This document shows, in pieces, positions 22,736 through 62,494 of a DNA stretch of 64,000 bases. This stretch comes from Erythrobacter sp. SCN 62-14 (lineage in GTDB: Bacteria > Pseudomonadota > Alphaproteobacteria > Sphingomonadales > Sphingomonadaceae), in NCBI GenBank assembly GCA_001724215.1, contig MEDW01000003.1, forward strand, positions 1-64,000, read 5' to 3'. Every line of letters starts with the position of its first letter. The first letter of the stretch is position 1. Both the position numbers and the translations under genes were made by a program. Under the pieces are notes generated by a model. It was not told the origin of the DNA, searched no databases, and worked only from the letters and a program-made list of their open reading frames with translations.

Positions 22736-22790
22736 TTCTAGCCACTCGGGGGCTCGTTAGTTGCGAGCTGACGAAAGGGGACTTTTCATC

Positions 22791-24458: not shown

Positions 24459-24482
24459 GCGCAGCAAGGAAGGAACTTACCC

Positions 24483-28340: not shown

Positions 28341-28342
28341 CA

Positions 28343-30624: not shown

Positions 30625-30830
30625 GCATCTCCCCCGCCTTTGCGCTCGCTGCCCTTATCCCGGTGCTGATCGGGCCTTTGCCGCAGGAAAGCGCCATGCT
30701 CACCGCCAAGCTGTGCGGCGGCGGCGAAATCACGATCCCGCTGGGTCAAGACACCCCCAGCGAGCGCGAGTGCCACCCCAAGGCCTGCCATGCCGGAACC
30801 TGCCGCGAGAAAGCAAAGCGCGGCAATTGA
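30621..30830 (+). CDS. Small exported Cys-rich protein downstream of ccoS
   Basis: 69 aa, hydrophobic N-terminus, LCGGGEITIPLGQDTPSERECHPKACHAGTC; overlaps the ccoS stop. Confidence 0.65.
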   Translation: MSISPAFALAALIPVLIGPLPQESAMLTAKLCGGGEITIPLGQDTPSERECHPKACHAGTCREKAKRGN

Positions 30831-30875
30831 TCCAGCGCAAAGACGCACGCGCGCCGGGGCTGTCTAACAGCCCTC

Positions 30876-41114: not shown

Positions 41115-41222
41115 CAGACAAGCGCTAGCAGTGCGCGCAGCAACCGGCAATTCGCACTGGCAAAGGTGCGCGTTTTCTTTATGCTGCTCTTAGGCACAAT
41201 TGGGTCCAGAGGGGGGGATCGA

Positions 41223-43676
41223 TTGTCGGACTTGTATAAAGTCGCCATAATTGGATCAGGCCCTGCCGGATTGAGCGCTGCGGCGCGCGCGGCGGCAATT
41301 GGCATGAGCCATGTGCTGATCGAAAAAACCGATCACCTCTCCGACACGATCTTCAAATACCAGAAGGGCAAGCACGTCATGGCAACGCCCGCCAATCTGG
41401 TGCTCAGAAGCGATCTCGATTTCGACGCGGGCAAGCGCGAGGCGATCCTTGGGACGTGGGACGAACAGATCGCCACGGGGCGCGTGAACGTAAAACTCAA
41501 CGCCGAAGTGACCAAGGTCGAAGGCGCAAAAGGCAATTTCGCGATCCACTTGCGCAGCGGCGAAGTGGTGGCAGCTGAAGCCATCGTGCTCGCCATTGGC
41601 ACACAGGGCAATCCCAACCGGCTGCGCTGTCCGGGAGCGGATTCGCCGATGATCCAGTATCAATTGGATGATCCGGGCGAATATTTTGATGAACACATCA
41701 CCGTGATCGGATCGGGCGATGCGGGGATTGAAAATGCGCTGGGTCTGGCAGCTGACCCGGCGCAGCGCAATGTGGTGACGATCCTCAACCGCTCGGCTGA
41801 TTTCGCCCGCGCCAAGGCGGCGAACGTGGCGCTGCTCGAAGAAGCCGAACGCGAGGGGCGCATCTTTGTGCGGCGCGAGACGACACCTGCCGAAGTTCGG
41901 GACGGCGAATTGCTGCTCGACACCCGCGACGGGCAGGAGGCGATTCCCTGCCAGCGCATCATCGCACGCACCGGCTCGCAGCCACCGCGCGGCTTTGTGG
42001 AGGCCATGGGCATCGAATTTTCGAGCAGCGAACCCGGTGCCTTCCCCAAGCTTTCGCCCGTGTTCGAAACCACCACGCCCGGCATCCATGTGATCGGCGC
42101 GCTGGCGGGCTATCCGCTGATCAAGCACTGCATGAACCAGGGCTATGATGTGATCGAGTTCCTGAACGGGAACGCTGACTTGAAGCCCGCCGATGAGCCT
42201 ATTCTGGCGGAGAAATTCAATCACCTTCCCGGCAATCGCAACGTGGATGAATGGCTCGGCGTGTTTGGCGACAATATCGGCATTCTGGCCGATCTTTCCA
42301 CCCTGCAGCTGCGCGAATTGATGCTCGATTCCACGGCTCACGCCTATGAGCCGGGCGACGTGATTTTCCGCCGCAACGAGCCGGGTTCCTCGATGTTCGC
42401 GATTGCCGAAGGCTCGGTCGCGGTTGAAGTCAGCCCGCATGATCCCTCGATCACTGTGCCGATCGAACAGGGCTCGATCTTTGGCGAGGTGGGCCTGATT
42501 TCCGGCCGCCGCCGGGGTGCGACGGTGCGCGCGGCGGAGCCTGTCATTGCGCTCGAATTGTCGCGCACCGCAGCGCTGAAATTGCTGGCAACCTCGCCGG
42601 GAGCAGCGCGCGCGGTCACCGCGATTTCGATTGAACGCCAACTGCTCCAGATGTTCGGTTCAGGCCTCACCCGCGAAGATGTCGCGCCGCTCGTCGCCAG
42701 TGCAGAAGTGATGCAGGCGCGCGCGGGCCAAGTGATCGTCACTGAAGGGGCGGATGACAAGGACATCTTCATTATCCGGCGCGGGTCGATGATTGTGGAG
42801 AAGGAAATCGGCGGCAAGCCGGTGTTCCTCTCTTACCTGCCCGCTGGTTCCTATTTCGGCGAAATGGCGGTGATCGATGGTTCAGCCCGCACCGCCACGG
42901 TGAAAGCCGCGATCAAATCCGAGGTGATCCGACTGCCGGGCGACGGGTTTCTAGCGCTACTCGATAAAAACCCGGCGCTGCGCGAAAAGGCGCTGGCCGA
43001 CATGGCGGGGCGCCGCGCCACCAACGCCTTTATCGAGAGCCGGAAAGGCGATTTCACCGGCGCGGTTGATCTCTACTCCGAAACCGCCGCCTTCCTTGTC
43101 GACAACGGCATTGGCGAGGCAACCGATGTGCTGCTCATCGATGAAAAACTCTGCATTGGCTGCGACAATTGCGAGAAGGCCTGTGCCGACAGCCATGATG
43201 GCCTCTCCCGGCTCGACCGCGAGGCCGGGCGTTCCTACGCCCATCTCCATGTGCCGACGTCATGCCGCCACTGCGAGCATCCCCATTGCATGGCCGATTG
43301 CCCGCCCAATGCAATCCACCGCGGCCCGGATGGCGAGGTGTTCATCGATGAAACCTGCATCGGCTGCGGCAATTGCCAGCGGAACTGCCCCTATGGCGTG
43401 ATCCGCATGGACGCAAAGCCGCCGAAAAAGCCGAGCCTCCTCCAATGGATGCTGTTTGGCGCGGGCCCCGGCCCGGGCGAGGCGCCCTATGGCTGGCGCA
43501 AGAAGGAAGCGGCCAAGCAGCAAATGCCGGAGGCCAAGCTCGCGATCAAATGCGATATGTGTTCCGGCATTGATGGCGGCCCGGCCTGTGTGCGCGCCTG
43601 CCCGACGGGCGCGGCCATCCGTGTGAGCCCCGACAAATTCCTCACCTTCACCAAGCTCACCGAGGATGTGGAGTAA
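41223..43676 (+). CDS. Fusion: FAD-dependent oxidoreductase - two cNMP-binding domains - four [4Fe-4S] ferredoxin motifs
   Basis: VAIIGSGPAGLSAAAR and TVIGSGDAGIENA (FAD/NAD); two cyclic-nucleotide cassettes (GSIFGEVGLISGRRRGATV, GSYFGEMAVIDGSARTATV); four Cys clusters. TTG start; in-frame ATG alternative at 41181. Confidence 0.9.
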   Translation: MSDLYKVAIIGSGPAGLSAAARAAAIGMSHVLIEKTDHLSDTIFKYQKGKHVMATPANLVLRSDLDFDAGKREAILGTWDEQIATGRVNVKLNAEVTKVEGAKGNFAIHLRSGEVVAAEAIVLAIGTQGNPNRLRCPGADSPMIQYQLDDPGEYFDEHITVIGSGDAGIENALGLAADPAQRNVVTILNRSADFARAKAANVALLEEAEREGRIFVRRETTPAEVRDGELLLDTRDGQEAIPCQRIIARTGSQPPRGFVEAMGIEFSSSEPGAFPKLSPVFETTTPGIHVIGALAGYPLIKHCMNQGYDVIEFLNGNADLKPADEPILAEKFNHLPGNRNVDEWLGVFGDNIGILADLSTLQLRELMLDSTAHAYEPGDVIFRRNEPGSSMFAIAEGSVAVEVSPHDPSITVPIEQGSIFGEVGLISGRRRGATVRAAEPVIALELSRTAALKLLATSPGAARAVTAISIERQLLQMFGSGLTREDVAPLVASAEVMQARAGQVIVTEGADDKDIFIIRRGSMIVEKEIGGKPVFLSYLPAGSYFGEMAVIDGSARTATVKAAIKSEVIRLPGDGFLALLDKNPALREKALADMAGRRATNAFIESRKGDFTGAVDLYSETAAFLVDNGIGEATDVLLIDEKLCIGCDNCEKACADSHDGLSRLDREAGRSYAHLHVPTSCRHCEHPHCMADCPPNAIHRGPDGEVFIDETCIGCGNCQRNCPYGVIRMDAKPPKKPSLLQWMLFGAGPGPGEAPYGWRKKEAAKQQMPEAKLAIKCDMCSGIDGGPACVRACPTGAAIRVSPDKFLTFTKLTEDVE

Positions 43677-44548
43677 TGGCGAGCCGCGCATCCGGCGCTG
43701 GCAAAAGCCGCTTTAGCCGTGACGAGGCGCGGCGCGATTCCGATCATGTGAGCTTCCTCAAACACCGCCGTTTCCGCTGGCTGTGGATTGCGCTTGTCCT
43801 GAGCGGCACGGCGGTGCTCGCCTATGCGCTGATCGATCAAGAGCCGCGCCCCAATGGCGGGACATGGCTTGGCTATACGCTCGGCACCATCGGCGTGCTG
43901 CTGATCCTGTGGCTTTCGCTCTTGGGTGTGAGGAAGCGCCACATCACCACCGGCGCGTGGAGCCTCAAGGCGTGGACATCGGCCCATGTCTATCTCGGCC
44001 TCTCGCTGATCGTGATCGGGACGCTGCACACCGGGTTTCAGGTGAGCTGGAATGTCCACACGCTCGCCTATGTGTTGATGATGGTGGTGATCTTGTCGGG
44101 CATCTGGGGGGTGATCGCCTATGCCACCTTGCCCGCGCACCTTTCTGCCAATCGCCGCGAAATGACACGCATCGAAATGCTCGATGCGCTCGCGGCACTG
44201 GATCGCCAATTGGATAGCGCCGCGCAGCCGCTCGAACGCGCCGAGGCCGACCTGGTGCTGGCAACGCTCACGCAAGATATCTTCCACGGCGGCGCATGGG
44301 GGCGGCTTACCGGGAGCTATCCGGCTTGCGCCACTGCCCGCGCGCTCAAGGCCATCGGGACGGGCGATGAAGCCCACGCGCGCGTCCATGCCCTGCTGGA
44401 TAAACGCCGCGAACAGCTCGCCCAGATCCGCGGTTACTTGCGGATCAAGGCGCTGCTGGAAATCTGGCTGTTCCTCCACATCCCTGCCACCATTGCCCTG
44501 ATCGCGGCGCTTATCGCGCACGTCATCAGCGTGTTCTATTACTGGTGA
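43676..44548 (+). CDS. Cytochrome-b-like four-helix membrane protein
   Basis: Two HX13H motifs in predicted TM helices (HVYLGLSLIVIGTLH; HIPATIALIAALIAH). TAATG overlap with the upstream gene. Confidence 0.7.
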   Translation: MASRASGAGKSRFSRDEARRDSDHVSFLKHRRFRWLWIALVLSGTAVLAYALIDQEPRPNGGTWLGYTLGTIGVLLILWLSLLGVRKRHITTGAWSLKAWTSAHVYLGLSLIVIGTLHTGFQVSWNVHTLAYVLMMVVILSGIWGVIAYATLPAHLSANRREMTRIEMLDALAALDRQLDSAAQPLERAEADLVLATLTQDIFHGGAWGRLTGSYPACATARALKAIGTGDEAHARVHALLDKRREQLAQIRGYLRIKALLEIWLFLHIPATIALIAALIAHVISVFYYW

Positions 44549-44559
44549 GGGGGCAGGCG

Positions 44560-46344
44560 ATGGCATTCCTCATCCGCACCATCGACTTCACCGCCTCGGG
44601 CCGCGAGATCATTCGTGATCGGGTCGTGGAACAGGCGCACCTCACGGTGGGCCGCGCGGCGGAATGCGATATCCACCTGCCCGATCTCGCGGTGGAACAG
44701 CGCCACTTGGCGCTCACCCTTGCAAGCGATGGCACTTTGCGCGCCGAGGCGCTCGGCACGCTCGGCTTTGCGCTCGACGGGCGCAGCGTCACCGAGGGCG
44801 TGATCGATCCGGGCGTCGGCGGCGAAATTGCGCTTGGCTCTGCCCTGATCGCAGCAGCGCGCGATGAAGCGGGCCGAGTCACCCTCACCATCCGCCAAGC
44901 CCCTGCCGAGGAAGGCAAGGGCGATGCGGTGGCAGGCTTCGCGCTCGCCAGCGCCCTGCCGAGCAAGCGCGCCGCCTCATGGGTGCTCGCCAGCCTTATC
45001 CTCGTGCTGCTGCTGGCCGTTCCGGTCTTCACCCATGCCACCCGCACGATCACTCCCAATGATCCGGACAAGATCACGCACGGCCAGACCGTGCTCGATG
45101 CCGCGTGGAGCACTGGCGCGCTTTCGGTGAAGCACCACGCGCTCGAAGAAAATTGCGAAAGCTGCCATGTGAACGCCTTTGTCTCGGTGCGCGATGAGAC
45201 CTGCATTTCGTGCCACAAGGGGCTGGGCGATCACGCCGCGAAACCGCGCCTCATCGCCGGGATGCCGGAGCTTTCATCAGGCGATGCCGCCTTGTGGAAA
45301 ATCGCCGGAATGTTCGGCAAGGAAGGGCGCGGCGCCTGCACCACCTGCCACACCGAACACGAAGGCAAGGTGCGACAACAGCCTGCAAGCGAGGCTTTCT
45401 GCAGCGATTGCCACGACAAGCTGGATACGCGGCTTACCGACACCGCTCTCGCCAATGCGCATGATTTCGGCAAACAGCACCCGCAATTCCGCCCCACTTT
45501 CTATGCCGCCTATGGGGCAAAAGAGCCGGTGCGCCTGTCGCTCGATAAAAAGCCGGTGGAGCAAAGCGGGCTGATTTTCCCGCACGATGTCCACATGGAT
45601 GAACGCGGGGGTGCGGCGCGCATGGCGATCAGCCTTGCGCAATATGGCGCGCCGCTTGAGTGCAAGGATTGCCACGCGGCCACTGCTGACAAAATCAGCT
45701 TCAAGCCGGTCGAGATGGAGCAATCCTGCGAGAGCTGCCACAGCCTTGTGTCAGGGCGCGGCGCGGGCGGCTTCACCAGCCTGCGCCACGGCGATGTGCG
45801 CAAATTCCGCGAGGATATTGCAGGCCTGAGGCAAGGCGCCGCCCGCAAGCCTGTTGGCGCCGCCCGCCAGCGGCCGGGGCAGTTCGGTGAGGCCGGACGT
45901 TACTACGCCCAATTTGGCCGCCCGGTGAACGCCCATATCAGCCTTGCACGAGGCCTTGAAAAGGGCGGGGTGTGCACCGAATGCCACCTGCCCACACAAA
46001 CGGGTGGCCGCGCTGACCTCGTGCCGGTGAACCTGCCTGATCGCTTCCTGATGCATGGCTATTTCAGTCACGAGGCGCACAAAAAGGAAGAATGCACCGA
46101 TTGCCACGCGGCCGACAAATCCAAGACCGCGAACGATCTTTTAATCCCTGATCTGGCAAGTTGTCGTGACTGCCACCTTGGAGCAACCGCCCAGAAAACC
46201 AAGAAAATCGTGCCCTCATCCTGCGCGATGTGCCACGCCTATCACGTCCCATCAGGACAATGGTCGCAAAGCCGTTCTGAAACGACCAAAGGAGCCTCCA
46301 GCTATGTTGCAGACGCCCGCCGCGCCAAAGGCTCCGACCAGTGA
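44560..46344 (+). CDS. Forkhead-associated (FHA) domain - TM - decaheme c-type cytochrome
   Basis: FHA-like N-terminus (HLTVGRAAECDIHLPDLAVEQRHLAL), one TM (WVLASLILVLLLAVPVF), then ten CXXCH motifs counted by eye. Confidence 0.88.
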   Translation: MAFLIRTIDFTASGREIIRDRVVEQAHLTVGRAAECDIHLPDLAVEQRHLALTLASDGTLRAEALGTLGFALDGRSVTEGVIDPGVGGEIALGSALIAAARDEAGRVTLTIRQAPAEEGKGDAVAGFALASALPSKRAASWVLASLILVLLLAVPVFTHATRTITPNDPDKITHGQTVLDAAWSTGALSVKHHALEENCESCHVNAFVSVRDETCISCHKGLGDHAAKPRLIAGMPELSSGDAALWKIAGMFGKEGRGACTTCHTEHEGKVRQQPASEAFCSDCHDKLDTRLTDTALANAHDFGKQHPQFRPTFYAAYGAKEPVRLSLDKKPVEQSGLIFPHDVHMDERGGAARMAISLAQYGAPLECKDCHAATADKISFKPVEMEQSCESCHSLVSGRGAGGFTSLRHGDVRKFREDIAGLRQGAARKPVGAARQRPGQFGEAGRYYAQFGRPVNAHISLARGLEKGGVCTECHLPTQTGGRADLVPVNLPDRFLMHGYFSHEAHKKEECTDCHAADKSKTANDLLIPDLASCRDCHLGATAQKTKKIVPSSCAMCHAYHVPSGQWSQSRSETTKGASSYVADARRAKGSDQ

Positions 46345-47228
46345 TCCCCGCGCAAGAAACGCGTGATCCGCGCGCGCTGCTGATCGCGCAAATCACCGAT
46401 ATTCACGTCGGCTTTGCCCCCGATGAAAAGCCGGAGGAATTGAACCTCACCCGCTTTCGCGCGGTGCTGGAGCGCTTGTTCCACGGCCCCAATGTGCCCG
46501 ATCTGCTGGTGCTGTCAGGCGACATCACCGATCACGGCGATGGGGAAAGCTTTGCCAAGACCGCCGCCCTGCTAGAATGCGGCCCCTGCCCGATAGTGCC
46601 CATGGTGTGCAATCATGACAGCCGCGAGGGATTGCTCGGCGCTTTCCCGCATATGGAGGCGGCGGAAGGCGGATTTCTGCATTGGGCGTTCGAGATGGCG
46701 GGCCTCAGGATCATCTGCCTCGACAGCCTCGAAGATGGCCGCCACGGCGGCGCTTTCTGCGAAGCGCGGGCGGCATGGCTCACCGCAAGGCTGGCCGAAG
46801 CGCCCGAGACGCCGACGCTGATCTTCCTGCATCACCCGCCGGTGGTGGCCGGGATCGACTGGATGGACCCGGCACCTGATGAGCCGTGGATTGTCCGGCT
46901 GCGCAGCGTGCTCGAAGGGCAAACACAGGTGCAGGCGATCCATTGCGGGCACTTGCACCGCCAGATCACCACCCGCTTTGCCGGCATCCCGCTGGGCGTG
47001 ACGCCGTCGGTTGCGCCTTTGGTGGCGATGGATCTCTCCGCGATCGATCAGGATGTGCCCGATGATCGCGAGCTTATCACCACCGAACCGCCGACCTATG
47101 CGCTGCACCGCTGGGACGGGCAGCGGCTGGTTTCGCATTACGAACGCGTGGGCGATTGGCAGGTGCTCGCCCGCTACACGCAAGGCTTGCAACCCATGAT
47201 CCGCGATATGTTTGCAGAGCGCGGTTAG
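46341..47228 (+). CDS. Calcineurin-like metallophosphoesterase, CpdA (cAMP phosphodiesterase)-like
   Basis: QITDIHVG, LSGDITDHGD, CNHDSREG, LHHPP, HCGHLHRQ. GTG/ATG overlap with the FHA-decaheme gene. Confidence 0.82.
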   Translation: MIPAQETRDPRALLIAQITDIHVGFAPDEKPEELNLTRFRAVLERLFHGPNVPDLLVLSGDITDHGDGESFAKTAALLECGPCPIVPMVCNHDSREGLLGAFPHMEAAEGGFLHWAFEMAGLRIICLDSLEDGRHGGAFCEARAAWLTARLAEAPETPTLIFLHHPPVVAGIDWMDPAPDEPWIVRLRSVLEGQTQVQAIHCGHLHRQITTRFAGIPLGVTPSVAPLVAMDLSAIDQDVPDDRELITTEPPTYALHRWDGQRLVSHYERVGDWQVLARYTQGLQPMIRDMFAERG

Positions 47229-47238: not shown

Positions 47239-50200
47239 TTAGCGCCCTGCCCGTTGCTGGCTTGCAGGAGGCGGCAAGCGCCCGATCCAGCGGCTCATAT
47301 TGACCTCGTCGCTGACTTTCCACGGCACGCCTGCGCGGGTCATGAACAGCCGCTCCATTTCAGGCCGGGTGAAGGGCCGCGAACCAAGCCGTCCAAACAC
47401 CGCGATCTGCCCGCCGGTTTCATCCACCGCGCGGTCGCGGTCGAGCCCCTTGGAGATGGAGATCGCGGGTGAAGGCGTCTTGGCGAAGGCAATCAGTTCG
47501 GGCACGGGCGTAGGTGAAAAACCATAGAAATTGCGCTGGCTATCGGGACTGGTGAGTTGCAGCAGCTTCATGCCGTTGCGCCCATCCGCCACATAGGCAA
47601 ACAGCGAGGCATTGGTGGTCGCCACCATCACATCCTCGGCATCATTCAGCGCGCCATCGAGCGTCACCTTTTGGTGGATGCGCGGGGCGAGCGGGTTCTT
47701 GACGTCGAGGATCACGAGGCCCTCGGCCTTGGCCGCGACATAGGCATAGGTGCGCGCGACATAGATGCGGCGCGCGTCGCTAAGGCGCACTGTGGCTTCG
47801 GGCCGGGCGATAGGATGTCGCAGGTTGGTGACATCGAACAGCTTCACCCCATCCGCATCCGAAACCCACAAATAGCGGAACTGGATCGCGCTCGCCCGTG
47901 CATCGCGAAGCTCGCGCACCGCAGCAAGCTTGGGTTCGAGCGGATTGGCGAGATCGACCACGACAAGCCCACGCGCCGCGGTAATGAAGGCAACCTCGCC
48001 CGCCAAGTGGATATGCCGCGCCCCATCGAGCACGCCTCCGGGGTTCCACGCGGTGCTGCCATCGGCGAGCACTTCGCGCCGCAGCCGGTTGCCGCGGAAT
48101 TCGCCGTCGGCCAGCGTGTTGACATTGACGAGCACCAGCCCCTCCACGCTGTCAGTCACCACCGCATAATTATAGATCGGCAGGAACGCCTGTTCCTGAT
48201 TGATTGCGCGCATTTCAGGGGTGCTGCGGGTGGGCGCAATCGGCTGATTGGTGGGCAGCGCCATGCAGGTGGCGTTCGCGGTCTTGACCTGCGTGTTGTG
48301 GCCCAGCTTGGAGAACGGCCCCGTCAGGATGCGCTCGGACACCCCCTTGTTGGCGACAGAGGCGACATCATAGGCGCGAAAGCCGCCCTTGCCTTCGGCC
48401 ACGAACATATATTCGCCGCGCACCTGCAAGCAGCCGACCCGGCCCGGCGTTCCCTGATTGATGTTGACGAATTCCTCTAACGGCTTGGTTTCGCCCGAGA
48501 GGTTCTTGTCGAAAGTATTGCCGCGCACCCAGTTCTTCAGTTCGCGGCCATTATCCTCAACGTGCATCCGCCAATAATCGGGATAGGCGTATTTGTGGAG
48601 GTATGACCCGATCACCGATTGCGGCTCGTCATATTCGGTGACGCGGGTCGCCTGAAACCCGCCCTCAAGACCCGTCCACGCGTTCATCCCAACGAAGTTT
48701 ACATAATTCGTGCCCAGCAAGAGCAGCTGCGCCATGATCGCGTTGTTATCGTCCTTGTCGGAAAGGTGGCAATCCGAGCAGGTCTTGGTCTCGGTTTTCC
48801 GCACAGTGTGCGGGAAATGCGGCGCGAAGGCCTGTGACGAGAACCCGATCGCGCTGATCGGCGGCTGCTGCACGTAGATGCGCTCGCGGTTGATGTTCAT
48901 CGAGGACAGCACCAGCGCCGAGGATGACCGCACCGGGGCGATCTGATTGCCCTTGGTGGTCTGGTGCTTGCCGAGCTGGAACATTTCATCGCGCGCGACC
49001 TGCGGGTTGTAAGTCGCAAAGTTGCGCGTCTCGCCGCCTTCATAACGGTGCGAGGCGGTTTTCCAGTTGGCCTCAATCGGCAGGTGACACCCGCCGCAGC
49101 TGGTCGTCCATGACAGGTGGCAGGTGAAGCACGCCATTTCGGGATCGCGGTGGGCGCGGTCTTCAAGGCTGACACCTTCACCAAATTCAAACCGGCCGGT
49201 TTCCGCGCCATAGCGGCTCATCAGCTTGGCGCGCGCCGCCTTGGCGTTGAATTCGGGCGAGGTCGGATCGACTGCGTCCTTCACCAGGCTCACCACCCAT
49301 TCGAGCTTGGGATCGACAATCGAGCGCTGAATCAGCTTGCGGCGGCCATCTGCGCCTTCGACCCATTCAAAGCGGCGCTGGCCATCGGGGTTCCTGAGCA
49401 GCGCAAGGTTATGCCCCTGCGGCGGGGCAGCAGGCCCGCTGGTGCGAAGCGTGGGGTAGGCATCTGCCGTGCCGTGGCAATCCTTGCAGCCGATTTCGAT
49501 GGCGTTTGCCACCTCGCCATAGATGAGGCCATTGCCGTGGCTGTCCTGTTCGTAATGGCAATCGGCGCATTGCATCCCGACCTCGGCGTGGATGCTCATC
49601 ATGTGGACTGCTTTTCCGGGATTGACGCCGGGTTCGACAAACTTGCCCTCGCCTTCCTTGCGCCATTTTTCGGGATCATCGGGATCGATGATCTTGCCGT
49701 CGGCATCGAGCAAATTGCCCTCGCGGTCGCGCTTGAAGATGGCGCGGAAATTCCAGCCGTGGCCGTGATAATCGGCAAATTGCGTATCTTTGAGCTTGGG
49801 GTTCAAGTCATAGACATTGCGCAGGAAATCGAGATCTGCCCACTTGCCTTTTGGCGCCGCGCCCTCCGGGTTGCGATCGAGCACCGCGCGCACTTCGGCA
49901 GAGGTGGGATACTTCTGCTGCTCTGGCCACATGAAAGGCGCATCGCTTTCATAGTCCCACATGGTGTAGCCGAGGTAGGAATTGAGGAAGATATTGGGCT
50001 GGTGCATATGGCAATTCATGCACTGCGCGGTGGGGATGGCGCGGGTGAAGACGTGTTGAAGCGGGTGGCCCTTCTCCTTCATCTTGCCGTCGATGGTGAG
50101 CGCGCCGTCCTCATAAGTCTTGCCGGGCTCCTTCACCGCCGCATGTTTTTTATCCTTCTTGCCATAGCCTCCGCCCGCAGGCTCCAGCTTGTTCGCGATC

Positions 50201-51330
50201 GTGGGGTCAACCGTGATGGTCTGCCCATCGCGGCCATATTGCGCATAGGTGAGCGAATGGCGCGGCTCGCGGTCATTGGCATAGACCACATGGCAGGATG
50301 CGCAGCCCGAATGGCGATAATCGCCCGGCTGATCGTTGGTCCCCATGAACCATGTGAAGGGATCATTGAGGCGCGTCTTGTGGATGTTGAGCGCGGGGAT
50401 CGCCACCCTCAGCCCCGTGCCGGGGCCGCGATTGGATTGCTTCAAATCAGGCCGCCCCGGCTCCTCCAACCGCTGGATCTGGCCCGATGGGCTCGGCAAG
50501 CCGATTTCGGGGAATTGCGAATTGATGGTGCGCCCGCCGCGTTCAAACACCCGGAACACATCGCCCGGCGGGATCACCTGCCATGTGGGCAGGGGGTAAA
50601 GCTCAGCCAGCACGCCGCGCGCTTCCTGTTCGGCTGACAGCTTGCCATCCTTGCCGGCGCCGGGCGAAGTGATCTTCGCAGGCTTGCCATCGCGGGTATA
50701 GGCCTCTCCCAAAGCGTAATTCTTGAAGGGCAAAATGCCGTTATTATAGGCCGCCCCGCCCCACAGCATCGCGCCTGTCGCCATGATTGATCGTTCCGCC
50801 GCCTCGATCGCCTGAATGTGACACGCCCCGCAGGCATCGCGCGCCACGCGGTAATCGGATGGGTTCACGAATTTGACGAATTCAGGCGCTTCCTTGTTGA
50901 GCAGCGCATAGGTCCGCTTGGGATTGGCGGATGAGGGAAAATGCCAGCTATCGGGATATTTGGGAAGCACATGCGCCCGGTCGCGCGCGGCGACATAATC
51001 GGGGTGATCGTGCGGCAATTCGGCGTTGCCGCGCACAGACGTATCCCCGCCGTGGCAATCGGTGCAGCCTATCCGTACGGCAGGCGAAAGGTGCATGGTG
51101 GGTGCATCGGATTTGGTGTGGCAGGTGAGACAGCCTTCTGATTTCTTATCCATTTCCGCGACCGATTGCTGGGCCGGAGCGGGCGCGGCAATCACGCGGG
51201 AATAATCGCGCTTCACCGGTTTTTCCTTGTCGGCCGCCATCGTGTCGCCCGCCAGCATCGCAAGCGCCAAGAGGCCTGCTCCGATCACCAGAGCGAGTGT
51301 GCGCATCAGGGGTTGGGTCAGCCAAGCCAT
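47239..51330 (-). CDS. Exported decaheme cytochrome with C-terminal LVIVD-repeat beta-propeller
   Basis: Signal peptide, ten CXXCH motifs counted by eye, C-terminal repeats such as VAFITAARGLVVVDLANPLEP and YAYVAAKAEGLVILDVKNPLAP. Confidence 0.9.
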   Translation of the reverse strand: MAWLTQPLMRTLALVIGAGLLALAMLAGDTMAADKEKPVKRDYSRVIAAPAPAQQSVAEMDKKSEGCLTCHTKSDAPTMHLSPAVRIGCTDCHGGDTSVRGNAELPHDHPDYVAARDRAHVLPKYPDSWHFPSSANPKRTYALLNKEAPEFVKFVNPSDYRVARDACGACHIQAIEAAERSIMATGAMLWGGAAYNNGILPFKNYALGEAYTRDGKPAKITSPGAGKDGKLSAEQEARGVLAELYPLPTWQVIPPGDVFRVFERGGRTINSQFPEIGLPSPSGQIQRLEEPGRPDLKQSNRGPGTGLRVAIPALNIHKTRLNDPFTWFMGTNDQPGDYRHSGCASCHVVYANDREPRHSLTYAQYGRDGQTITVDPTIANKLEPAGGGYGKKDKKHAAVKEPGKTYEDGALTIDGKMKEKGHPLQHVFTRAIPTAQCMNCHMHQPNIFLNSYLGYTMWDYESDAPFMWPEQQKYPTSAEVRAVLDRNPEGAAPKGKWADLDFLRNVYDLNPKLKDTQFADYHGHGWNFRAIFKRDREGNLLDADGKIIDPDDPEKWRKEGEGKFVEPGVNPGKAVHMMSIHAEVGMQCADCHYEQDSHGNGLIYGEVANAIEIGCKDCHGTADAYPTLRTSGPAAPPQGHNLALLRNPDGQRRFEWVEGADGRRKLIQRSIVDPKLEWVVSLVKDAVDPTSPEFNAKAARAKLMSRYGAETGRFEFGEGVSLEDRAHRDPEMACFTCHLSWTTSCGGCHLPIEANWKTASHRYEGGETRNFATYNPQVARDEMFQLGKHQTTKGNQIAPVRSSSALVLSSMNINRERIYVQQPPISAIGFSSQAFAPHFPHTVRKTETKTCSDCHLSDKDDNNAIMAQLLLLGTNYVNFVGMNAWTGLEGGFQATRVTEYDEPQSVIGSYLHKYAYPDYWRMHVEDNGRELKNWVRGNTFDKNLSGETKPLEEFVNINQGTPGRVGCLQVRGEYMFVAEGKGGFRAYDVASVANKGVSERILTGPFSKLGHNTQVKTANATCMALPTNQPIAPTRSTPEMRAINQEQAFLPIYNYAVVTDSVEGLVLVNVNTLADGEFRGNRLRREVLADGSTAWNPGGVLDGARHIHLAGEVAFITAARGLVVVDLANPLEPKLAAVRELRDARASAIQFRYLWVSDADGVKLFDVTNLRHPIARPEATVRLSDARRIYVARTYAYVAAKAEGLVILDVKNPLAPRIHQKVTLDGALNDAEDVMVATTNASLFAYVADGRNGMKLLQLTSPDSQRNFYGFSPTPVPELIAFAKTPSPAISISKGLDRDRAVDETGGQIAVFGRLGSRPFTRPEMERLFMTRAGVPWKVSDEVNMSRWIGRLPPPASQQRAGR

Positions 51331-53171
51331 CAGTAAGTCAGCACCACATTGGCCAGCACCGAGAAAAACTCGCGGCCTGTGCCCAGATTATCAAACAGAT
51401 TGCGAAAGCCCTTGCCCGGCAGCAGCGCGGCGGCCGACAGCCGCATCACAATGTTCTGCGTCGCCTTGGGCCGCCAGATTGCGGCGGCTGACAGATCAAA
51501 ACCGATCTCGCGCGGGATGCTGCCTTCGTTCCTTAACACCTGTAAAACCTGCGTGTTCTGGAACCACAGGTGGTTGGCATTGGTGGAAAGTCGGAACTCC
51601 GGCGTCAGATCGAAATCCGCGCCAATGCCGGTCAGGATCAGGCCGGGATTGACGAAATTGGATTGGCCCTGCTCTTTCGAGCTGCGCAGCGAGTTGAGGA
51701 TGCCATTGCGCCCATTGACGCTGACGGCGCGCCCGCCACCTGCGAAAGGAATGGTCTGGCGGATCCAGTAAGAGGTATCCGCCCCTGCAAAAATCGGGTT
51801 TTCAAAGATCGCATCAAACCCGGTTTCCTTGTTGTCAAACGGGTCTTTATCGCCGCTTGCATAGGCGCCGGACAGACGGAAGCGCATCCAGTTATTGTCG
51901 TAACTTGCCTCCAGCGCGCCGAACTGGGCGTTGATATTGGCAGGCTCTCCGGTGAAGATATTGTTGCGGTTTTCGCCGAGCGCCCAATAGGCGCTCGCCG
52001 TCAGGTTGATGCGTCCGATGCGGCCATCAGCGTTGTAGCCCAGATAGACCACATCATAATCGCGCCCCCGCAAATCGCCGAGCAAAGCCGGGCGCACCGG
52101 AAAGCCATTGGTGTCCACCTCGATGCGGCCGCCTTCGCGGTTCATGTTGTAGGCAACAGTGATCTGGCTGGTGAGCGCGGGGATCAGGAAATCCTGCCGG
52201 TAGGCATTGGCGACAAACACAAAATCATCGCGCGGGCGCTGGACAATCGAATTGAGGCCGGAATTGGTGTCTTTCTCCAGCCGCCAGAACGCGCCGAGAT
52301 TGAACTGAAAGCGGTTGTTGTCGCGCGAGCCGAACAGCCGCACGCCCAATTGCTGATCGTTGAACAGGAACCCGCGGAAATCCGACTGAAACGGCTGGAT
52401 GCCTGCGCGGATCGAGATGAAATCGAAGCGTTCCGTGTCGAATTCGGTGAAGTGGTAATCGACGAAAGCTTCCTGCACCCCCACGAAACTGTCAAAGCGG
52501 GTCGTCCCGCGCGAAGGCTCGACAAACAGCACGCGCCGTTCGGGCACTTCGACATAGTTCATGTTGAAAGCGAGCGTGACGCGGTATTCAATCGAGGGCG
52601 GCTTGAAGTTGGTCGAGCCTTTGAGCAGCGCTGCGCCGACCAGAAAAGTCTGGCTCAGCACAGTCGAGAAATTGTTGCCGAACACATCGAGCCGGTCGGG
52701 GTCCTGCGTCGTCTGGATCCCGACAGGAATCGGGAAAGTGCGCGGTTCATACACAGTGTCGCTGATGAGATTGGCGACGAAAAACCAATCATCGCCTTTA
52801 ATCGGCAGCCACGGCACTTTTTCGCGGTTGATCGGGCGATCCCCCTTGTAAGTGTTCTGGTTATAGGGGTCGAACAGGTTTTCGCGCACCAGCCCCAGCG
52901 TTTCAATCAGCCGCCAGCGATCAGGGATCGGGAGCTGATCGCGCGGGAAAGCTTCGGGCGGCGGCGCACGGATCGCGCCTTCGTTGCGCTGGATGGTGCG
53001 TTCGGGCAGCGGCGCGGTGTAGCCGGGCCGCTGGCGGCCTTCGATCAGTTCCGGGTCAACCGGCGGCGCGTCCTCCTCCCAATCGGCGGGCGGCGGGGAT
53101 GCTTGCTCGCTCGGCTCTTCGGCGGCGACCGGTTGCACAATCAACGCAGCAGGGAGGAAGAGCCAAGCCAT
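51330..53171 (-). CDS. Outer-membrane beta-barrel protein (DUF1302-like), 613 aa
   Basis: Signal peptide, alternating amphipathic strands, LGLVRENLFDPYNQNTYKGDRPI, C-terminal FFSVLANVVLTY; start overlaps the upstream gene region and stop overlaps the decaheme start. Confidence 0.8.
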   Translation of the reverse strand: MAWLFLPAALIVQPVAAEEPSEQASPPPADWEEDAPPVDPELIEGRQRPGYTAPLPERTIQRNEGAIRAPPPEAFPRDQLPIPDRWRLIETLGLVRENLFDPYNQNTYKGDRPINREKVPWLPIKGDDWFFVANLISDTVYEPRTFPIPVGIQTTQDPDRLDVFGNNFSTVLSQTFLVGAALLKGSTNFKPPSIEYRVTLAFNMNYVEVPERRVLFVEPSRGTTRFDSFVGVQEAFVDYHFTEFDTERFDFISIRAGIQPFQSDFRGFLFNDQQLGVRLFGSRDNNRFQFNLGAFWRLEKDTNSGLNSIVQRPRDDFVFVANAYRQDFLIPALTSQITVAYNMNREGGRIEVDTNGFPVRPALLGDLRGRDYDVVYLGYNADGRIGRINLTASAYWALGENRNNIFTGEPANINAQFGALEASYDNNWMRFRLSGAYASGDKDPFDNKETGFDAIFENPIFAGADTSYWIRQTIPFAGGGRAVSVNGRNGILNSLRSSKEQGQSNFVNPGLILTGIGADFDLTPEFRLSTNANHLWFQNTQVLQVLRNEGSIPREIGFDLSAAAIWRPKATQNIVMRLSAAALLPGKGFRNLFDNLGTGREFFSVLANVVLTY

Positions 53172-53174
53172 CGC

Positions 53175-55130
53175 CTAAAGCCCCTCGCACACGTTCTGCG
53201 CTGCGGTATCTAGGAAAGGCGCGAAGGGGCAGTTGATATAGCGCAGCCGCACCTGCCGCGTGCCCACCTGCACAAGCACGCGGTCTGCGCGGATCGCATT
53301 CGGCGCATTGCCGATGCCGGTCCCCGCCTTCTGCGCGCCATTGTGAAGGCCGAGAAAGCTGATCATGTCATCCTGATCGATCCCGTCGCCCGACACACCA
53401 ATCGCGCCGACCAGCACATTACCGCGATAGATCGGAACAGAGCCGGGAAAGATCTGGATGCCATTGGCAAGGCGGCTCGTGCCCGCAGGCGTCACCGGCA
53501 GGCTGGTGCAATTCCTCGGCGTATCAGTGGGCGCAGCGCCGGTGACAAAGCCCAAGTGCTGCGCCAAATTGCCGATGATGAGCGCCGATTGCAGCCCGGT
53601 CGAAAAGGGATTGAACTGTGCGATGGGGCGCGAAAACGGCCCCGGTGGGCGGCCCAATTCGCCATCGGGGAAATAGGGGCGCGCAAGGTTTCCGGTCGCC
53701 CGGTCCGAGAAAGCGAATTGCCCGGTCAGCGCCTGTGGATTGCCGAGGAAATCGCGCGCGCGACTCACGAATTGCGGCACTTCGCCGCTGGCCGCCTGCA
53801 TTTCGGCAGCCGCAAAGGGGGCAGAGAAGAAATTGGCGCTGCGCGCCTTCTGCAAGCTCACATCAATCCCGAAAATCGGCGCATCGGGCGAACGCACAAT
53901 GCCGAGCACCGCCCCGCGCGTATCAACCAGGCTGATCGTCACTTCGGCGCGGCTGTCCAAGGGCTGGCGGATTTGGGCGCGCGCGCGGCTCATGATGGTG
54001 AAGGCTTCTTCGAGGATCACCCGCGCCTCGGCAAAGGAGATGGGGGTGGCGACATCGCCTGCATCTGTCCCGCCGCGGACCGGGAAGCGGGCAGCGCCCA
54101 TACCGTTGGTCAGCACAAAGGCATCGCGCAAGCTGAACTCGGAAGGCAAAGACGCGCGCACGCCCGAAGCCTCGCTGCCATAGGTTGCCCCTGCAACAAG
54201 GCCGCCGCCGCCGAAATAACCCGCCACCGCCACCAGCGCGCCGGGGGTTGCCGCAAAGCTCGCGCCGCCAATCGCACCGACTTGCGAATAGGCCGCATCG
54301 GTGTAGCGCAGCGATGTGCCGTCAGCGAAAATGCGGTCTGCGCGGATGGTGATCGGTGCTTCGAAGCCCACCGTGCCGGCCAGCGCAATCAGCTCATCCA
54401 GATCATTGTCGCGGTCGAGCACATTGGGATCAAACCCATAGACCCCGTCGGCCATCACCCCGATACCGCCCACTACGACGCCGTTTTTATAAAGCGGAAA
54501 GCCCCCCGGATCAGCCGCCAGCCCCAAGGGCGAGCGCTTGGGCCCGACCATCCCATCACTCGCCCGCGCGGCCAGATCAGAGCAGGGCAATTGGCTGAAC
54601 TGGACGCCAAACAAAGGCCCGCTTTCAAGGCCAGCCGTGCTGGGGGCGGGCGGGAAGTGCTCTTGCACGATCATGCTGGCGGTGCGGGTGGAAAAGGCAT
54701 TCCCGCTGCTCGACAGATAAGCCCCGGTGATTGCCTTGGCGATGGCGGCAGCGGCGCTGGGCACTTCCAGCCCTTGCGCATCAATATTGTCGCCATTGGG
54801 CGCCGCCGATATCCGCGCAGTCGCTCCTGCTCCCGGCATGGCAAACACGCCGAGCACATTGCCCACGCGGTCAGTAACGGCGATAGTGGCGCTGGCCCCG
54901 CTGGCACGGGCCTGGGCTGCGGCCTGCGCAATGATCGTGCCGACTTCGGCTGCACTCAGGTTTTCGGCGCGCGGCACGGAATAAAACGCGCCGCTAGGAG
55001 GCGGAGCAGGTGGCGGCGCGGGCGGCGCGGTTCCGCCGCCGCCTCCGCCGCCACTTTCACCGCCGCCGCCGCACGCGCTCACCACCAGGGCAAGGCCAGC
55101 CAGCAGCGCGGTTCCCCCCTTGCGCCCCAT
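53175..55130 (-). CDS. Lipoprotein with two GlcG/HbpS-like (DUF336) haem-binding domains
   Basis: Lipobox VSAC followed by Gly/Pro linker; ATIAVTDRVGNVLGVFAMPGA and VTISLVDTRGAVLGIVRSPDAP repeats. Confidence 0.85.
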   Translation of the reverse strand: MGRKGGTALLAGLALVVSACGGGGESGGGGGGGTAPPAPPPAPPPSGAFYSVPRAENLSAAEVGTIIAQAAAQARASGASATIAVTDRVGNVLGVFAMPGAGATARISAAPNGDNIDAQGLEVPSAAAAIAKAITGAYLSSSGNAFSTRTASMIVQEHFPPAPSTAGLESGPLFGVQFSQLPCSDLAARASDGMVGPKRSPLGLAADPGGFPLYKNGVVVGGIGVMADGVYGFDPNVLDRDNDLDELIALAGTVGFEAPITIRADRIFADGTSLRYTDAAYSQVGAIGGASFAATPGALVAVAGYFGGGGLVAGATYGSEASGVRASLPSEFSLRDAFVLTNGMGAARFPVRGGTDAGDVATPISFAEARVILEEAFTIMSRARAQIRQPLDSRAEVTISLVDTRGAVLGIVRSPDAPIFGIDVSLQKARSANFFSAPFAAAEMQAASGEVPQFVSRARDFLGNPQALTGQFAFSDRATGNLARPYFPDGELGRPPGPFSRPIAQFNPFSTGLQSALIIGNLAQHLGFVTGAAPTDTPRNCTSLPVTPAGTSRLANGIQIFPGSVPIYRGNVLVGAIGVSGDGIDQDDMISFLGLHNGAQKAGTGIGNAPNAIRADRVLVQVGTRQVRLRYINCPFAPFLDTAAQNVCEGL

Positions 55131-56521
55131 CAGCCAAGCCTGCCAATCGCGCCGGCAGCCGCCTTCAAAGCGCTGCGGAAATCGGCGGGGCGATAGGCGT
55201 TGGGCTCTTCCACCGCCTTGTAAGCGCGCGCCAGATTGGCGCGGATACCCGCTGCCGCCCCGCTGGTGACGCGGCCCTCGCGCACCAGAGCATTCAAGAG
55301 CGTGTCCACCGCCATCACCGCCTGCACCGATCCGGCATAGTCGGTGAACTGCGCAGAGGTTGCCTCACCTGCGATAATGGCGATCACGCGGAAGGCATCA
55401 TCTTTGCCATAGCCGCGCGTGCTGAGCGCATCAGCGAGCGCCCCGGCCCGCGCACCCAGCCCTTGCGCCGCTGTGCGCGCCGCGCCTGCATCGCTTGCCA
55501 TCGCCTTGTGGAAATCACGCGCCGCAGTGCGGAATGCAGCGGCTTCTGACGGGACCAGCGCGCCCGCCACCGCGCCGAGCAGGATGATGTTTTCATCATT
55601 GAAAGGCGGATTGCCAAAGGCGATGGGACGGGCGGGATTAACCTCAAAGGTCAGCTTGCGGTTTGGCCCGTCAGTGATGGTGCGGTGGCACGAATGGCAA
55701 TCGTAGAAATAGAACTGCGGGAAGATGCCTTCTGACGCAAATTTGGGCTGGGCAAACAGGCTGGTGGCCCGCCGCACCGCTTCGGCCTGTCCCACCGCCC
55801 AGAACCGCACCGCATTCGGGCGCGATTTGCGCGCCACATAGTCGGCATCAATATCGTGGTGCTGTTGCAGCGTGCTGAACAGATCAAGCTCGAAGGAAAT
55901 GCGCGGGTGGCCTGCTGCCATCATCGCGTGAGTCACGAATTGCCCCGGCTTGGATGAACCATAGTGGCAATCAAGGCAGACATTGGCGCGCGCCTTGGGG
56001 GTATCAAGCGGGATCAGCCCTGCCGCAATGTTGCTCGCATGGGTGGCAGGCCGGGCATAGTGTGCCGCCAGCCAGCCTGCGCCGCTGGTCGATCCCGAAG
56101 CGCCGTGGCAGCTTTCGCAGCCCACCCCATCGCTGAGCGTGAATTTCGCGCCGCGCTGCGCTTTGGGGGCATAGGTCGCATGGCAGCCTAGACAGGCCTC
56201 GGCAGAGGTTGCAGACCCCAATCCAAGGCTGGCGGCAATCTGCTGCCCGCGCCGCCCGGCAAGCACGGCGTAAGCGCGGCTATGGGCGCCCGAGGGTGAG
56301 GAGGGTTCTTGCCAGGTGGCTATTTCATCCTGCCGGACAACCGCGCCGTTGCCTTCAGCCCGGCCATGGCAAGTGGAGCCTGCACAGCTGGCCACGCCTT
56401 CAAACACCGGATTACCAATCGCGACGGAAGCGGGAAAAATCACGCAGAGCGCGAGCATTGCCCCGCCCGCAGGCGCAAGCAACCGCCTCAACGCGTGGTT
56501 CAAAGCCGATCTTTCCGCCAT
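55130..56521 (-). CDS. Multihaem cytochrome c554-like protein
   Basis: CAGSTCH (CX4CH) plus CLGCH, CESCH, CLDCH, CHSCH; N-terminal signal. Confidence 0.85.
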   Translation of the reverse strand: MAERSALNHALRRLLAPAGGAMLALCVIFPASVAIGNPVFEGVASCAGSTCHGRAEGNGAVVRQDEIATWQEPSSPSGAHSRAYAVLAGRRGQQIAASLGLGSATSAEACLGCHATYAPKAQRGAKFTLSDGVGCESCHGASGSTSGAGWLAAHYARPATHASNIAAGLIPLDTPKARANVCLDCHYGSSKPGQFVTHAMMAAGHPRISFELDLFSTLQQHHDIDADYVARKSRPNAVRFWAVGQAEAVRRATSLFAQPKFASEGIFPQFYFYDCHSCHRTITDGPNRKLTFEVNPARPIAFGNPPFNDENIILLGAVAGALVPSEAAAFRTAARDFHKAMASDAGAARTAAQGLGARAGALADALSTRGYGKDDAFRVIAIIAGEATSAQFTDYAGSVQAVMAVDTLLNALVREGRVTSGAAAGIRANLARAYKAVEEPNAYRPADFRSALKAAAGAIGRLG

Positions 56522-56637: not shown

Positions 56638-57393
56638 TCACGCTTCCATATCCTCTGCGGCCTGCGCTGCTGCTTCGAGCGATGTGCTGAGCTGCTCAAG
56701 TTGGACAGCGCACCCTTTGCCGATCAGCGCTTCGGCAAGCGCATCGGGTGCCTCATAATCCTCGCTCAAAAGCATAAAGCCAAGCTGGGCGGCGAGCGTC
56801 CCGTCGGGCGCGGTCACCTGATAGGTTGTCCCTTCGCGGATCGGCAGGCGCGCAGGATCGAGCGCAGCGATCATCACCGTGTCATCGAAAGTCACCTCGA
56901 CCTGCGCTTCCCCCGCTTCATCGGCGATGCGGTAGGTCGAGACGCCAGCCGTGCCAGGACGCCACAGCCGCACAGTGTCGAGATCATAAAGGCAGATCGT
57001 ACCCGAGCGCGTCACATCGACATACCACAGGCTGGGATTGCTGGGCGCGTCATCCACTTCGCCGCGCACCGCCCCGGTGCGCACCCGGCTGGCGGCCCGC
57101 TTGCGGGTAAGGGCAGCAAAGCGCTCGTTCGCCACTTGCGGGCGATCTCCCACCCGGTGGCTGCCCGCGCCCTTGATCACGCGGGTACCGCCCGAGGTCA
57201 GCACTGTCACCACATCGCCATCGCGCAAGGTGATTGTGGCATTGTCATCGAGCTTGGTGCCGACAGGAAAGCGTGAGGCCGATGGCCCGGAGGATTTCAC
57301 CACCACGCCTGCCAAGACGCTCGCTGGCATGGCAAGACATGCGCCGGCAAGCAGTGCACCGGAAATCCGTTGTTTCAACCTAGCTGAGAACAT
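56638..57393 (-). CDS. FecR-like periplasmic protein
   Basis: Signal peptide; FPVGTKLDDNATITLRDGDVVTVLTSGGTRVIKG resembles FecR domains; overlaps the adenylate cyclase stop. Confidence 0.6.
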   Translation of the reverse strand: MFSARLKQRISGALLAGACLAMPASVLAGVVVKSSGPSASRFPVGTKLDDNATITLRDGDVVTVLTSGGTRVIKGAGSHRVGDRPQVANERFAALTRKRAASRVRTGAVRGEVDDAPSNPSLWYVDVTRSGTICLYDLDTVRLWRPGTAGVSTYRIADEAGEAQVEVTFDDTVMIAALDPARLPIREGTTYQVTAPDGTLAAQLGFMLLSEDYEAPDALAEALIGKGCAVQLEQLSTSLEAAAQAAEDMEA

Positions 57394-59440
57394 AAGTCCC
57401 TCCCTCATCCACGCGGCCCAAACGTTCCAACAGTTTTTGTAAGGCCAAATCGTCCCCATGACCAGCGCAGAGCGCCTCAACAATGGCGATTGCGCCCTGA
57501 GTGTCACGCCCGATCAGCCCCATCGCTTCGACAAGGCGGGCGCGGTCATGTGCAGGGAAATCGGGCGCAGGCTCGAACAGGTCAACCGGACGAGCGCGGC
57601 CGCGCAATTGCACCCGGCCCATAGGGCGCCACCAGTCGAGCCCGGATGCTTCGGCAAATTCGCGGCTTGCCATCACGCTTGAGGCCAATTGCTTGTTCGC
57701 AGCCTCCAGTCGGGCTGCGGTGTTCATGCTGTCGCCAAGGGCAGTGTACTGGATGCGCGTTGCCCCGCCGAAATTGCCGATCACCGCCTCGCCATAATGA
57801 AGCCCGACGCGGGTCTTGCCGATCGGCGGCAGGCTGGCATCCATGGCAGCGACTTCGGCACGGAAGGCCTCACCCGCCTGCCAAATTGCATAGCCTGCCT
57901 TTGCCGCGCGCGCACCATCATCGGGCCGGCTGATCGGCGCTCCCCAGAAGGCCACCACCGCATCGCCCACGAATTTGTCGATCACCCCGCCATTATCGAG
58001 CACCACCTGGCTCAGCATATCGAGATAGCGATTGAGCAAGGTTGCGACCATTTCCGGCTCGAGCGCATGGCTCATCTTGGTGAAGCCTTCCAGATCGCTG
58101 AACAGCACAAAAATGCTGCGTTTATCGCCACGCAATTCGAGCAGTTCTGGCTCCTCGATGATCGCCTGCGCAATGTCGCGTGGGATATATTTGCCAAGCG
58201 CACTTTGCGCGAAATTGCGGCTGGCTGCGCCCGATGCGCGCGCTGCAGCCGTCACGCCGGCAAAGGCGATGATCCATCCCGCCAGCCAGCCGACAGCCGG
58301 CAGGCCATAGGTGTCCACCCCGCGCGCCTCCAGCGCCCAAGGCAGACCGAGCAGCAAGGCAAGCAAACCCGCCAGCACCGGAACCAGCCGCCGCGCAGGC
58401 CATTCCAGCAGCGCAATCAGCGCAGCGCTTGCCACCACCAGCACCGCCATCAGCCATTTCAGCGCGGGCGAAATCGCACGCAGCGCCTTGCCATCCAGCA
58501 TCTGGGCGATGATATCGCCATGCACGGCCAGCCCTGCCGGACGCTGGCCACTGACCGACGTGAACGAGGTATCAACGCGGTCATAATCGACGATATCGCC
58601 GCCGATGAGAACATATTTGCCGGCAATCTGCTCAGCCAGAAAAGGCAGCACATCGGGATCGGGATCGGCGAACAGATCAATCTGCAAAGAGGCAAACAGC
58701 GGCTCATCAGCAAAGCGCGGGCGGCGATAGGCAATCGCACCGCCATAATCGGCAAATTCGCTCGGCAATTCAGCAGCGTCTTCCAGCATAGCACGGCCCA
58801 GCAAGGGCGGCAGACCCGGCGTTATCGGCGGCCACACCCGCGTCGCGCCAAAAGCATTGTCGAGCCGGATGCTCGCTGCGCGCGACCGCGTGCCCTCGAT
58901 CTGATCGAGGAATTCTTCCAAAAACATCTGCTGTTCGTAAACCAGATCGCTTTCATTGGTGGCGATGTTGGCATAGGCGACCGCAGTTGGCGTCTGCATA
59001 TCGCGCAGCGCGGCAATCAGCGCCTCGTCTTCATCCTGTGGCTGATCGAACAGGATATCGATCCCGATGGCTTTGGCATTCATCGTGTCCAGCGTGCGCA
59101 ATGCTGCCGCCAAGATCCCGCGATCCAAGGGCGAGCGTTTGCGCGCCCGGATCAGCGTCTGATCGTCATAGACCACCAGCACGATGCGATCATCTTGGCC
59201 CACCATCGGCGCGGTGAAGTAAGCACGCAAATCATAAAATGCGCGCTCTGCATCATTGGTCAGCGGAGTTGGCCCACCATTCTCACCGGGCAGATTCCAA
59301 CTGAAGCGTGCGACAAACAGCGCCAGCAGGATCAGCAGCATGGTTGCCACCAATTGCAGCGGTCCCGCCTCGCGCACATTGCGCCACCCACGCGCCACCA
59401 TGCGCAAGCCGTCGCGCGGGATCGTGGCCAAAGTGTTCAC
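57380..59440 (-). CDS. CHASE2-domain adenylate cyclase (class III)
   Basis: N-terminal CHASE2 (DDRIVLVVYDDQTLIRARKRSPLDRGILAAALRTLDTMNAKAIGIDILFD), three TMs, cyclase domain FSDLEGFTKMSH, GGVIDKFVGDAVVAFWGAP, YTALGDSMNTAARLEAANK. Confidence 0.92.
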   Translation of the reverse strand: MNTLATIPRDGLRMVARGWRNVREAGPLQLVATMLLILLALFVARFSWNLPGENGGPTPLTNDAERAFYDLRAYFTAPMVGQDDRIVLVVYDDQTLIRARKRSPLDRGILAAALRTLDTMNAKAIGIDILFDQPQDEDEALIAALRDMQTPTAVAYANIATNESDLVYEQQMFLEEFLDQIEGTRSRAASIRLDNAFGATRVWPPITPGLPPLLGRAMLEDAAELPSEFADYGGAIAYRRPRFADEPLFASLQIDLFADPDPDVLPFLAEQIAGKYVLIGGDIVDYDRVDTSFTSVSGQRPAGLAVHGDIIAQMLDGKALRAISPALKWLMAVLVVASAALIALLEWPARRLVPVLAGLLALLLGLPWALEARGVDTYGLPAVGWLAGWIIAFAGVTAAARASGAASRNFAQSALGKYIPRDIAQAIIEEPELLELRGDKRSIFVLFSDLEGFTKMSHALEPEMVATLLNRYLDMLSQVVLDNGGVIDKFVGDAVVAFWGAPISRPDDGARAAKAGYAIWQAGEAFRAEVAAMDASLPPIGKTRVGLHYGEAVIGNFGGATRIQYTALGDSMNTAARLEAANKQLASSVMASREFAEASGLDWWRPMGRVQLRGRARPVDLFEPAPDFPAHDRARLVEAMGLIGRDTQGAIAIVEALCAGHGDDLALQKLLERLGRVDEGGTYVLS

Positions 59441-59455
59441 CGCGCGCCGCCTCGC

Positions 59456-62493: not shown

Positions 62494-62494
62494 C

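Follow-up and report, generated by a model that had tools for sequence, protein, structure and literature searches.

We identified a conserved gene module in which a large decahaem cytochrome ending in an LVIVD-type propeller is paired with an outer-membrane barrel and accompanied by a core with a remote likeness to PCC4. In the reading that we favour, with a confidence that is evenly balanced, the module would form an outward, NAD(P)H-fed redox chain that spans the envelope, has a PCC4-related core and places the decahaem at a selective 18-strand pore. The window, that is, the whole stretch of DNA analysed, comprises 64,000 nucleotides of Erythrobacter sp. SCN 62-14.

Gene content and organisation of the module

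The features of the window that make up the module, with their companions, are listed below.

41223..43676, + strand: core 1, cytoplasmic protein with an NAD(P)/FAD (YpdA-like) domain, two cNMP-binding domains and a ferredoxin-type region
43676..44548, + strand: core 2, inner-membrane protein (IMP) with two WX3HX13H motifs and SGXXG; PCC3/PCC4-type, predicted b-haem protein
44545..46344, + strand: core 3, N-terminal FHA/YscD-like domain, one TM segment and 10 CXXCH; putative bitopic relay cytochrome
46341..47228, + strand: calcineurin-like phosphoesterase, a frequent companion of the core
47239..51330, - strand: decahaem-LVIVD protein, 1363 aa, with a Sec-type signal-like N-terminus and without a lipobox
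47536..48450, - strand: residues 961-1265, the propeller region of LVIVD type; the conserved C-terminal tail behind it extends to about residue 1345
48451..51231, - strand: ten-haem region, residues 34-960, with 13 invariant non-CXXCH His
51330..53171, - strand: outer-membrane barrel of 613 aa that ends in VVLTY, with 18 predicted strands and an AlgE/OprD-like fold
51642..51857, - strand: barrel loop L7, residues 439-510, 72 residues on the predicted extracellular side, 28 invariant
53175..55130, - strand: HbpS-like lipoprotein with HbpS-like (PF03928) domains
55130..56521, - strand: c554-type cytochrome with 4 CXXCH and one invariant CX4CH
57380..59440, - strand: CHASE2-adenylate/guanylate cyclase, an upstream companion in part of the loci

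The stop codon of the barrel gene and the ATG of the decahaem gene share base 51330 (TGATG), giving a one-base overlap, and the two genes were on the same strand at 140/140 loci, with a median gap of about -5 bases. Judged by this linkage, the barrel and the decahaem are not chance neighbours. An earlier note on this DNA had described a decahaem start overlapping the stop of a 613-aa barrel that ends in VVLTY, and both the overlap and, in an 18-strand model, the barrel were confirmed.

From gene order and content, the pair closes a larger conserved module as its two final genes and is its predicted outer-membrane end. The module consists of a pentahaem c554-type cytochrome, an HbpS lipoprotein, the barrel, the decahaem and three core genes. 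The c554 and HbpS genes share the operon of the barrel and decahaem, and the core genes lie nearby. As a rule c554, HbpS, barrel and decahaem follow one another in this order, and in Sphingomonadales they are faced by nad, IMP, FHA-decahaem and phosphoesterase. In divergent loci of Alpha- and Gammaproteobacteria the core and outer-membrane genes usually form a single series (nad, IMP, FHA-decahaem, HbpS, barrel, decahaem), and in 18/20 of those fetched the core, HbpS, barrel and decahaem genes formed one single-strand cluster. The cytochromes of the module keep 10, 10 and 4(+1) haem motifs. Two family searches placed all c554- and c7-family matches of the window's genome in this locus. No FNR, CRP or Fur-like motif upstream of the c554 and core genes stood out above shuffles. 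The gene set, its conservation and linkage, the haem counts, the motifs and the two-way use of outer-membrane modules by the core are all read from sequence.

The decahaem-LVIVD protein

The 1363-aa ORF contains CXXCH at residues 67, 89, 167, 343, 437, 588, 615, 734, 745 and 851 and nowhere else, and it begins with a hydrophobic signal-like segment; no lipobox or surface signal was seen in the protein. LVIVD (PF08309) scored 46 bits against a Pfam cut-off of 20.2, with the best stretch at 1185-1218, and was present in 22/22 aligned homologues (E <= 0.01). The exported ten-CXXCH protein with LVIVD that the earlier note had proposed is therefore borne out by the motif count and the family score. 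Exactly ten CXXCH were found in 50/50 and 61/61 homologues in two sets of full-length proteins, and 13 His outside these motifs were invariant, enough to provide ten putative distal haem ligands. At about 136 aa per haem the protein is large and haem-sparse. AlphaFold2 gave a poor model for residues 34-973 (pLDDT 53, pTM 0.43). A PDB sequence search returned no relatives of either the decahaem or the barrel, and a literature search for LVIVD in cytochrome papers found no relevant paper. The earlier note had recognised no Mtr/Omc/Pcc homologue by eye, and Pfam, NCBIfam and PDB sequence searches likewise gave no match to MtrA, MtrB, MtrC, OmcS or Pio.

The outer-membrane barrel

The barrel model has 18 strands (pLDDT 82.6, pTM 0.79), joined by short turns at one end of the barrel and by long loops at the opposite end. 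Among the matches listed, the best fold match was AlgE (Z 28.8, rmsd 3.0 A, 363 residues aligned, 14% identity), and OprD/Occ porins were also near (OccK, Z 26). On the model, this likeness to AlgE and OprD would be one of fold only, and implies no function. L7 is both the longest loop on the predicted extracellular side and the most conserved long segment of the barrel, with 28 invariant columns and a mean top-residue frequency of 0.84 against 0.69 for the barrel overall; it may either reach into the lumen or offer a surface for docking. The lumen-facing charges are balanced, which does not support an Arg-lined, AlgE-like electropositive pore. Pfam and NCBIfam gave no family match for the barrel, including none that would place it with MtrB/PioB. 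MtrB was also not among the 50 matches listed in the fold searches, a listing that is not evidence of absence.

Relation of the core to PCC4 and exchange of outer-membrane modules

According to He et al. (2017, PMC5566968), the inner-membrane protein of PCC3 and PCC4 is marked by two WX3HX13H motifs and SGXXG, and a PCC4 cluster is defined as having this IMP, a PF13247 gene, a porin and cytochromes that carry 4, 5 and 10 haem motifs; the electron direction proposed for both is inward, to quinone (He et al. 2017, PMC5566968). The motifs of the IMP are present in core 2, and two W-X3-H-X13-H with SGXXG were found in 26/26 IMPs. Core 1 has a PF13247 match of 44.5 bits and overlaps the IMP start by one base, which corresponds to the PF13247-type Fe-S gene adjoining the IMP in PCC4 subgroup II. 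The haem counts differ, being 4 (+1 CX4CH), 10 and 10 here rather than 4, 5 and 10, and the 5-haem protein was not found in genome G000. Our comparison used loci identified by composition rather than the sequences of He et al., and hhalign of the barrel against the porins of these loci gave a probability of only 0.2%.

Loci L242-L245 have the PCC4 composition (4-, 10- and 5-haem cytochromes, IMP, PF13247 protein and porin), the 4-haem gene of L243 falling beyond the contig end, and their core proteins are remote homologues of those in the window. By motif and homology, the core is thus a remote relative of clusters with PCC4 composition. The two share the IMP motifs, an adjoining PF13247 Fe-S protein with cNMP domains, and 10- and 4-haem cytochromes that are remote homologues. 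They differ at the outer-membrane end, where PCC4 has a pentahaem protein and a porin and the window module instead has the HbpS lipoprotein, the AlgE-like barrel and the decahaem-LVIVD protein. Core 1 of the window also differs by a fused FAD/NAD(P) domain; the Fe-S protein of L242 has cNMP domains and lacks this one. The PCC4-type proteins group as a single clade of the IMP tree (100/100), apart from the window-type clade.

We also found that the outer-membrane end is exchangeable, because some genomes join this core to a PCC4-type pentahaem-porin pair. L179-L181 combine an IMP and FHA-type decahaem of the window type with a pentahaem protein and a porin, the genomes of L178 and L182 have a window-type core and, at a different site, the pentahaem cassette, and G453 carries both modules, as a complete window-type cluster and a separate c554-pentahaem-porin cassette. 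No homology was detectable between the decahaem-barrel and pentahaem-porin modules. An IMP occurred in 29 genomes of a 289-genome class sample, 20 with the decahaem, 7 with the pentahaem (1 with both) and 3 with neither. The pentahaem-associated cores fall at more than one place inside the window-type clade, in a tree with many open inner branches and a bootstrap that had not settled, which makes the number of exchanges unsure. Through exchange on a common core, the part played by outer-membrane modules would become open to direct test.

The IMP also occurs in other settings. In L238 and L239, from genomes outside the class, it forms a single ORF of about 1120 aa with the Fe-S/FAD protein, accompanied by an FHA-cytochrome with 9 motifs. 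At L185 (1224-3657, - strand) a distant IMP adjoins a 21-haem cytochrome in a PCC3-like arrangement, with no porin in view.

Distribution

In the Sphingomonadales sample, 75/296 genomes had a homologue of the decahaem at E <= 1e-10, every one of them a member of the window's own family; in the class sample 25/337 genomes had one, 3 of them from that family. Among 398 genomes sampled from the phylum, one outside the class (G947) had a homologue. A second genome outside the class (G761, locus L236) has the HbpS and barrel genes on a contig that ends at the expected decahaem start. Named hosts include Erythrobacter, Porphyrobacter, Sphingobium, Novosphingobium, Sphingomonas and Blastomonas, and many hosts are aerobic heterotrophs. 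In Sphingobium herbicidovorans the gene set lies on a plasmid typed as conjugative, where its annotation goes no further than 'multiheme c-type cytochrome', 'hypothetical protein', 'heme-binding protein' and similar. The module thus occurs in about a quarter of the sampled Sphingomonadales genomes (75/296), mostly of aerobes not known for extracellular electron transfer. Given this frequency and the occasional conjugative plasmid, an unrecognised envelope redox route may therefore be common.

Proposed route of electrons and alternative explanations

The start of core 1 was set by homology at TTG 41223, the mechanical ORF start being at 40815. Its ferredoxin-type region has four 4Fe-4S Cys motifs, kept in 69/69 core-1 proteins, and the cNMP phosphate-cassette motif was found in at least one copy in 69/69 and in at least two copies in 55/69. 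An FAD/NAD(P) domain was identified in the window protein. Its similarity to YpdA is below the family cut-off, which counts against the proposed chain.

In the favoured chain, electrons would pass from NAD(P)H to FAD and the 4Fe-4S clusters of core 1, the cytoplasmic cNMP-domain protein, and from these clusters to two b haems of the inner-membrane protein. They would then travel through the FHA-decahaem relay and the pentahaem c554-type protein to the decahaem-LVIVD protein. The latter would be located at the periplasmic face of the selective 18-strand barrel, or docked on it, and would exchange electrons with a small or soluble partner passing through or docking at the pore. The HbpS lipoprotein may serve in haem or metal handling. 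Since core 1 combines the FAD/NAD(P) domain with four Fe-S motifs, it would supply the electron entry, and the outward direction is proposed because this entry is an NAD(P)H-type flavin domain. The cNMP domains, the phosphodiesterase-like gene (46341..47228, whose best named matches are cyclic-nucleotide phosphodiesterases, below cut-off) and the CHASE2-cyclase of part of the loci together suggest cyclic-nucleotide control of the chain. We infer the order of the carriers, the direction, the place of the decahaem, the nature of its partner and this control.

It is possible, if doubtful, that the whole chain is powered by NAD(P)H and gated by a cyclic nucleotide, that its outer-membrane heads are exchangeable, and that the giant decahaem-propeller protein acts on a specific substrate moved by a dedicated AlgE-like pore. 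The module would then be an electron-driven surface enzyme or export system and would not serve mineral extracellular electron transfer.

The decahaem-LVIVD protein might also be a catalytic oxidoreductase of the periplasm that is fed by the core, with the barrel importing its substrate or exporting its product, and we consider this rather unlikely. A purely periplasmic enzyme would fit the operon order as well, which counts against the favoured chain, and the barrel has a fold typical of substrate-specific or polymer-export pores and a lumen lined by conserved charged residues. A five-coordinate site in so large and haem-sparse a module would be compatible with the 13 invariant His, although these suffice for all haems to be bis-His; moreover, no known catalytic domain is present, and the pentahaem alternative on the same core also offers only cytochrome families.

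A true porin-cytochrome conduit, in which all or part of the decahaem lies in or through the barrel, the propeller stands outside and electrons pass to or from minerals, humics or electrodes, is unlikely. It would account for a tightly linked pair of barrel and multihaem genes and for a core related to PCC4, but the barrel of MtrB has 26 strands against 18 here, in an AlgE/OprD fold with a long, conserved L7, and the decahaem is large, haem-sparse and without lipobox or surface signal. Because the model of the barrel is an 18-strand pore of AlgE/OprD type and not one of MtrB size, threading by the decahaem is unlikely, as is, by size, an insertion of the MtrAB type. A short haem-bearing segment could still enter an 18-strand barrel, the fused Cyc2 having one haem, and a 2026 survey counts a matching group of large decahaems with porins of about 20 strands as EET (PMC13264449).

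The porin-cytochrome logic suggested in the earlier note survives in part. An inner-membrane electron entry with the b-haem motifs of PCC3/PCC4, a multihaem relay in the periplasm and an outer-membrane barrel with its decahaem agree with it, whereas the 18 predicted strands of AlgE/OprD type, the conserved L7 and the roughly 136 aa per haem speak against a conduit of MtrAB style that would hold the cytochrome within the barrel. The LVIVD propeller would be no more than a candidate for the surface domain that the note had imagined, since no lipobox was seen and no feature puts the protein outside the outer membrane. That note had named a barrel too narrow or plugged, and unrelated to the cytochrome, as grounds for giving up the idea; the barrel probably is too narrow or plugged, but it is not unrelated to the cytochrome. 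Metagenome counts of a porin next to a decahaem do not imply an MtrAB-type conduit.

Electron uptake by an inward chain that oxidises Fe(II), Mn(II) or another outside donor and reduces quinone or NAD(P)+ is improbable: the direction proposed for PCC3/PCC4 and the resemblance of the IMP to a quinone-active cytochrome b are in its favour, but core 1 has a flavin domain of NAD(P)H type, fused to its Fe-S region, that is absent from the PCC4-like relative, and many hosts are aerobic heterotrophs.

Comparison with other known systems

Group 1 of the 2026 Sterkfontein MAG survey (PMC13264449) comprises eleven clusters in which a decahaem gene of 4-5 kbp adjoins one for a porin of about 20 strands, 7/11 clusters also having a ferredoxin-NADP reductase gene, and is classed there as EET. 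Matched by description, it is probably the same gene pair as ours; its text gives no LVIVD, HbpS, IMP or PCC4 relation (PMC13264449). To that survey our analysis adds the propeller, the HbpS lipoprotein, the AlgE-like fold and conserved loop of the barrel, a remote kinship with PCC4 and the swapping of outer-membrane modules.

MtrCAB and PioAB likewise have an outer-membrane barrel and a decahaem in one operon. They show no sequence match, however, and the window pair has an 18-strand AlgE-like barrel and a far larger, haem-sparse cytochrome with a propeller. The Geobacter ExtHIJKLMNOPQS cluster (selenite/tellurite) is alike in holding a porin, several multihaem cytochromes and a membrane cytochrome b. 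Its match here is local: ExtM (NF040943) scored 55.3 bits against a cut-off of 800, over about 50 residues of haem motifs, and this identity was rejected.

Other genes in the window

At a distance of about 9 kb from core 1, this genome has a cbb3 oxidase cluster (22761-32186, + strand), a microaerobic context; the cluster contains COX1/FixN, FixO, FixP, FixG, a heavy-metal ATPase and a HemN-like radical SAM protein. Divergent from core 1 is a gene for a CcmH/CycH-type cytochrome c biogenesis TPR protein (40191-41150, - strand), and a TPR gene occupies the matching position on the Sphingobium plasmid. Upstream of the c554 gene and on the same strand, 56638-63901 (-) encodes a FecR-like ORF, the CHASE2-cyclase, a CHAT protease-like protein and a TPR protein. 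This stretch is conserved in about 10-17 loci and possibly represents a signalling unit.
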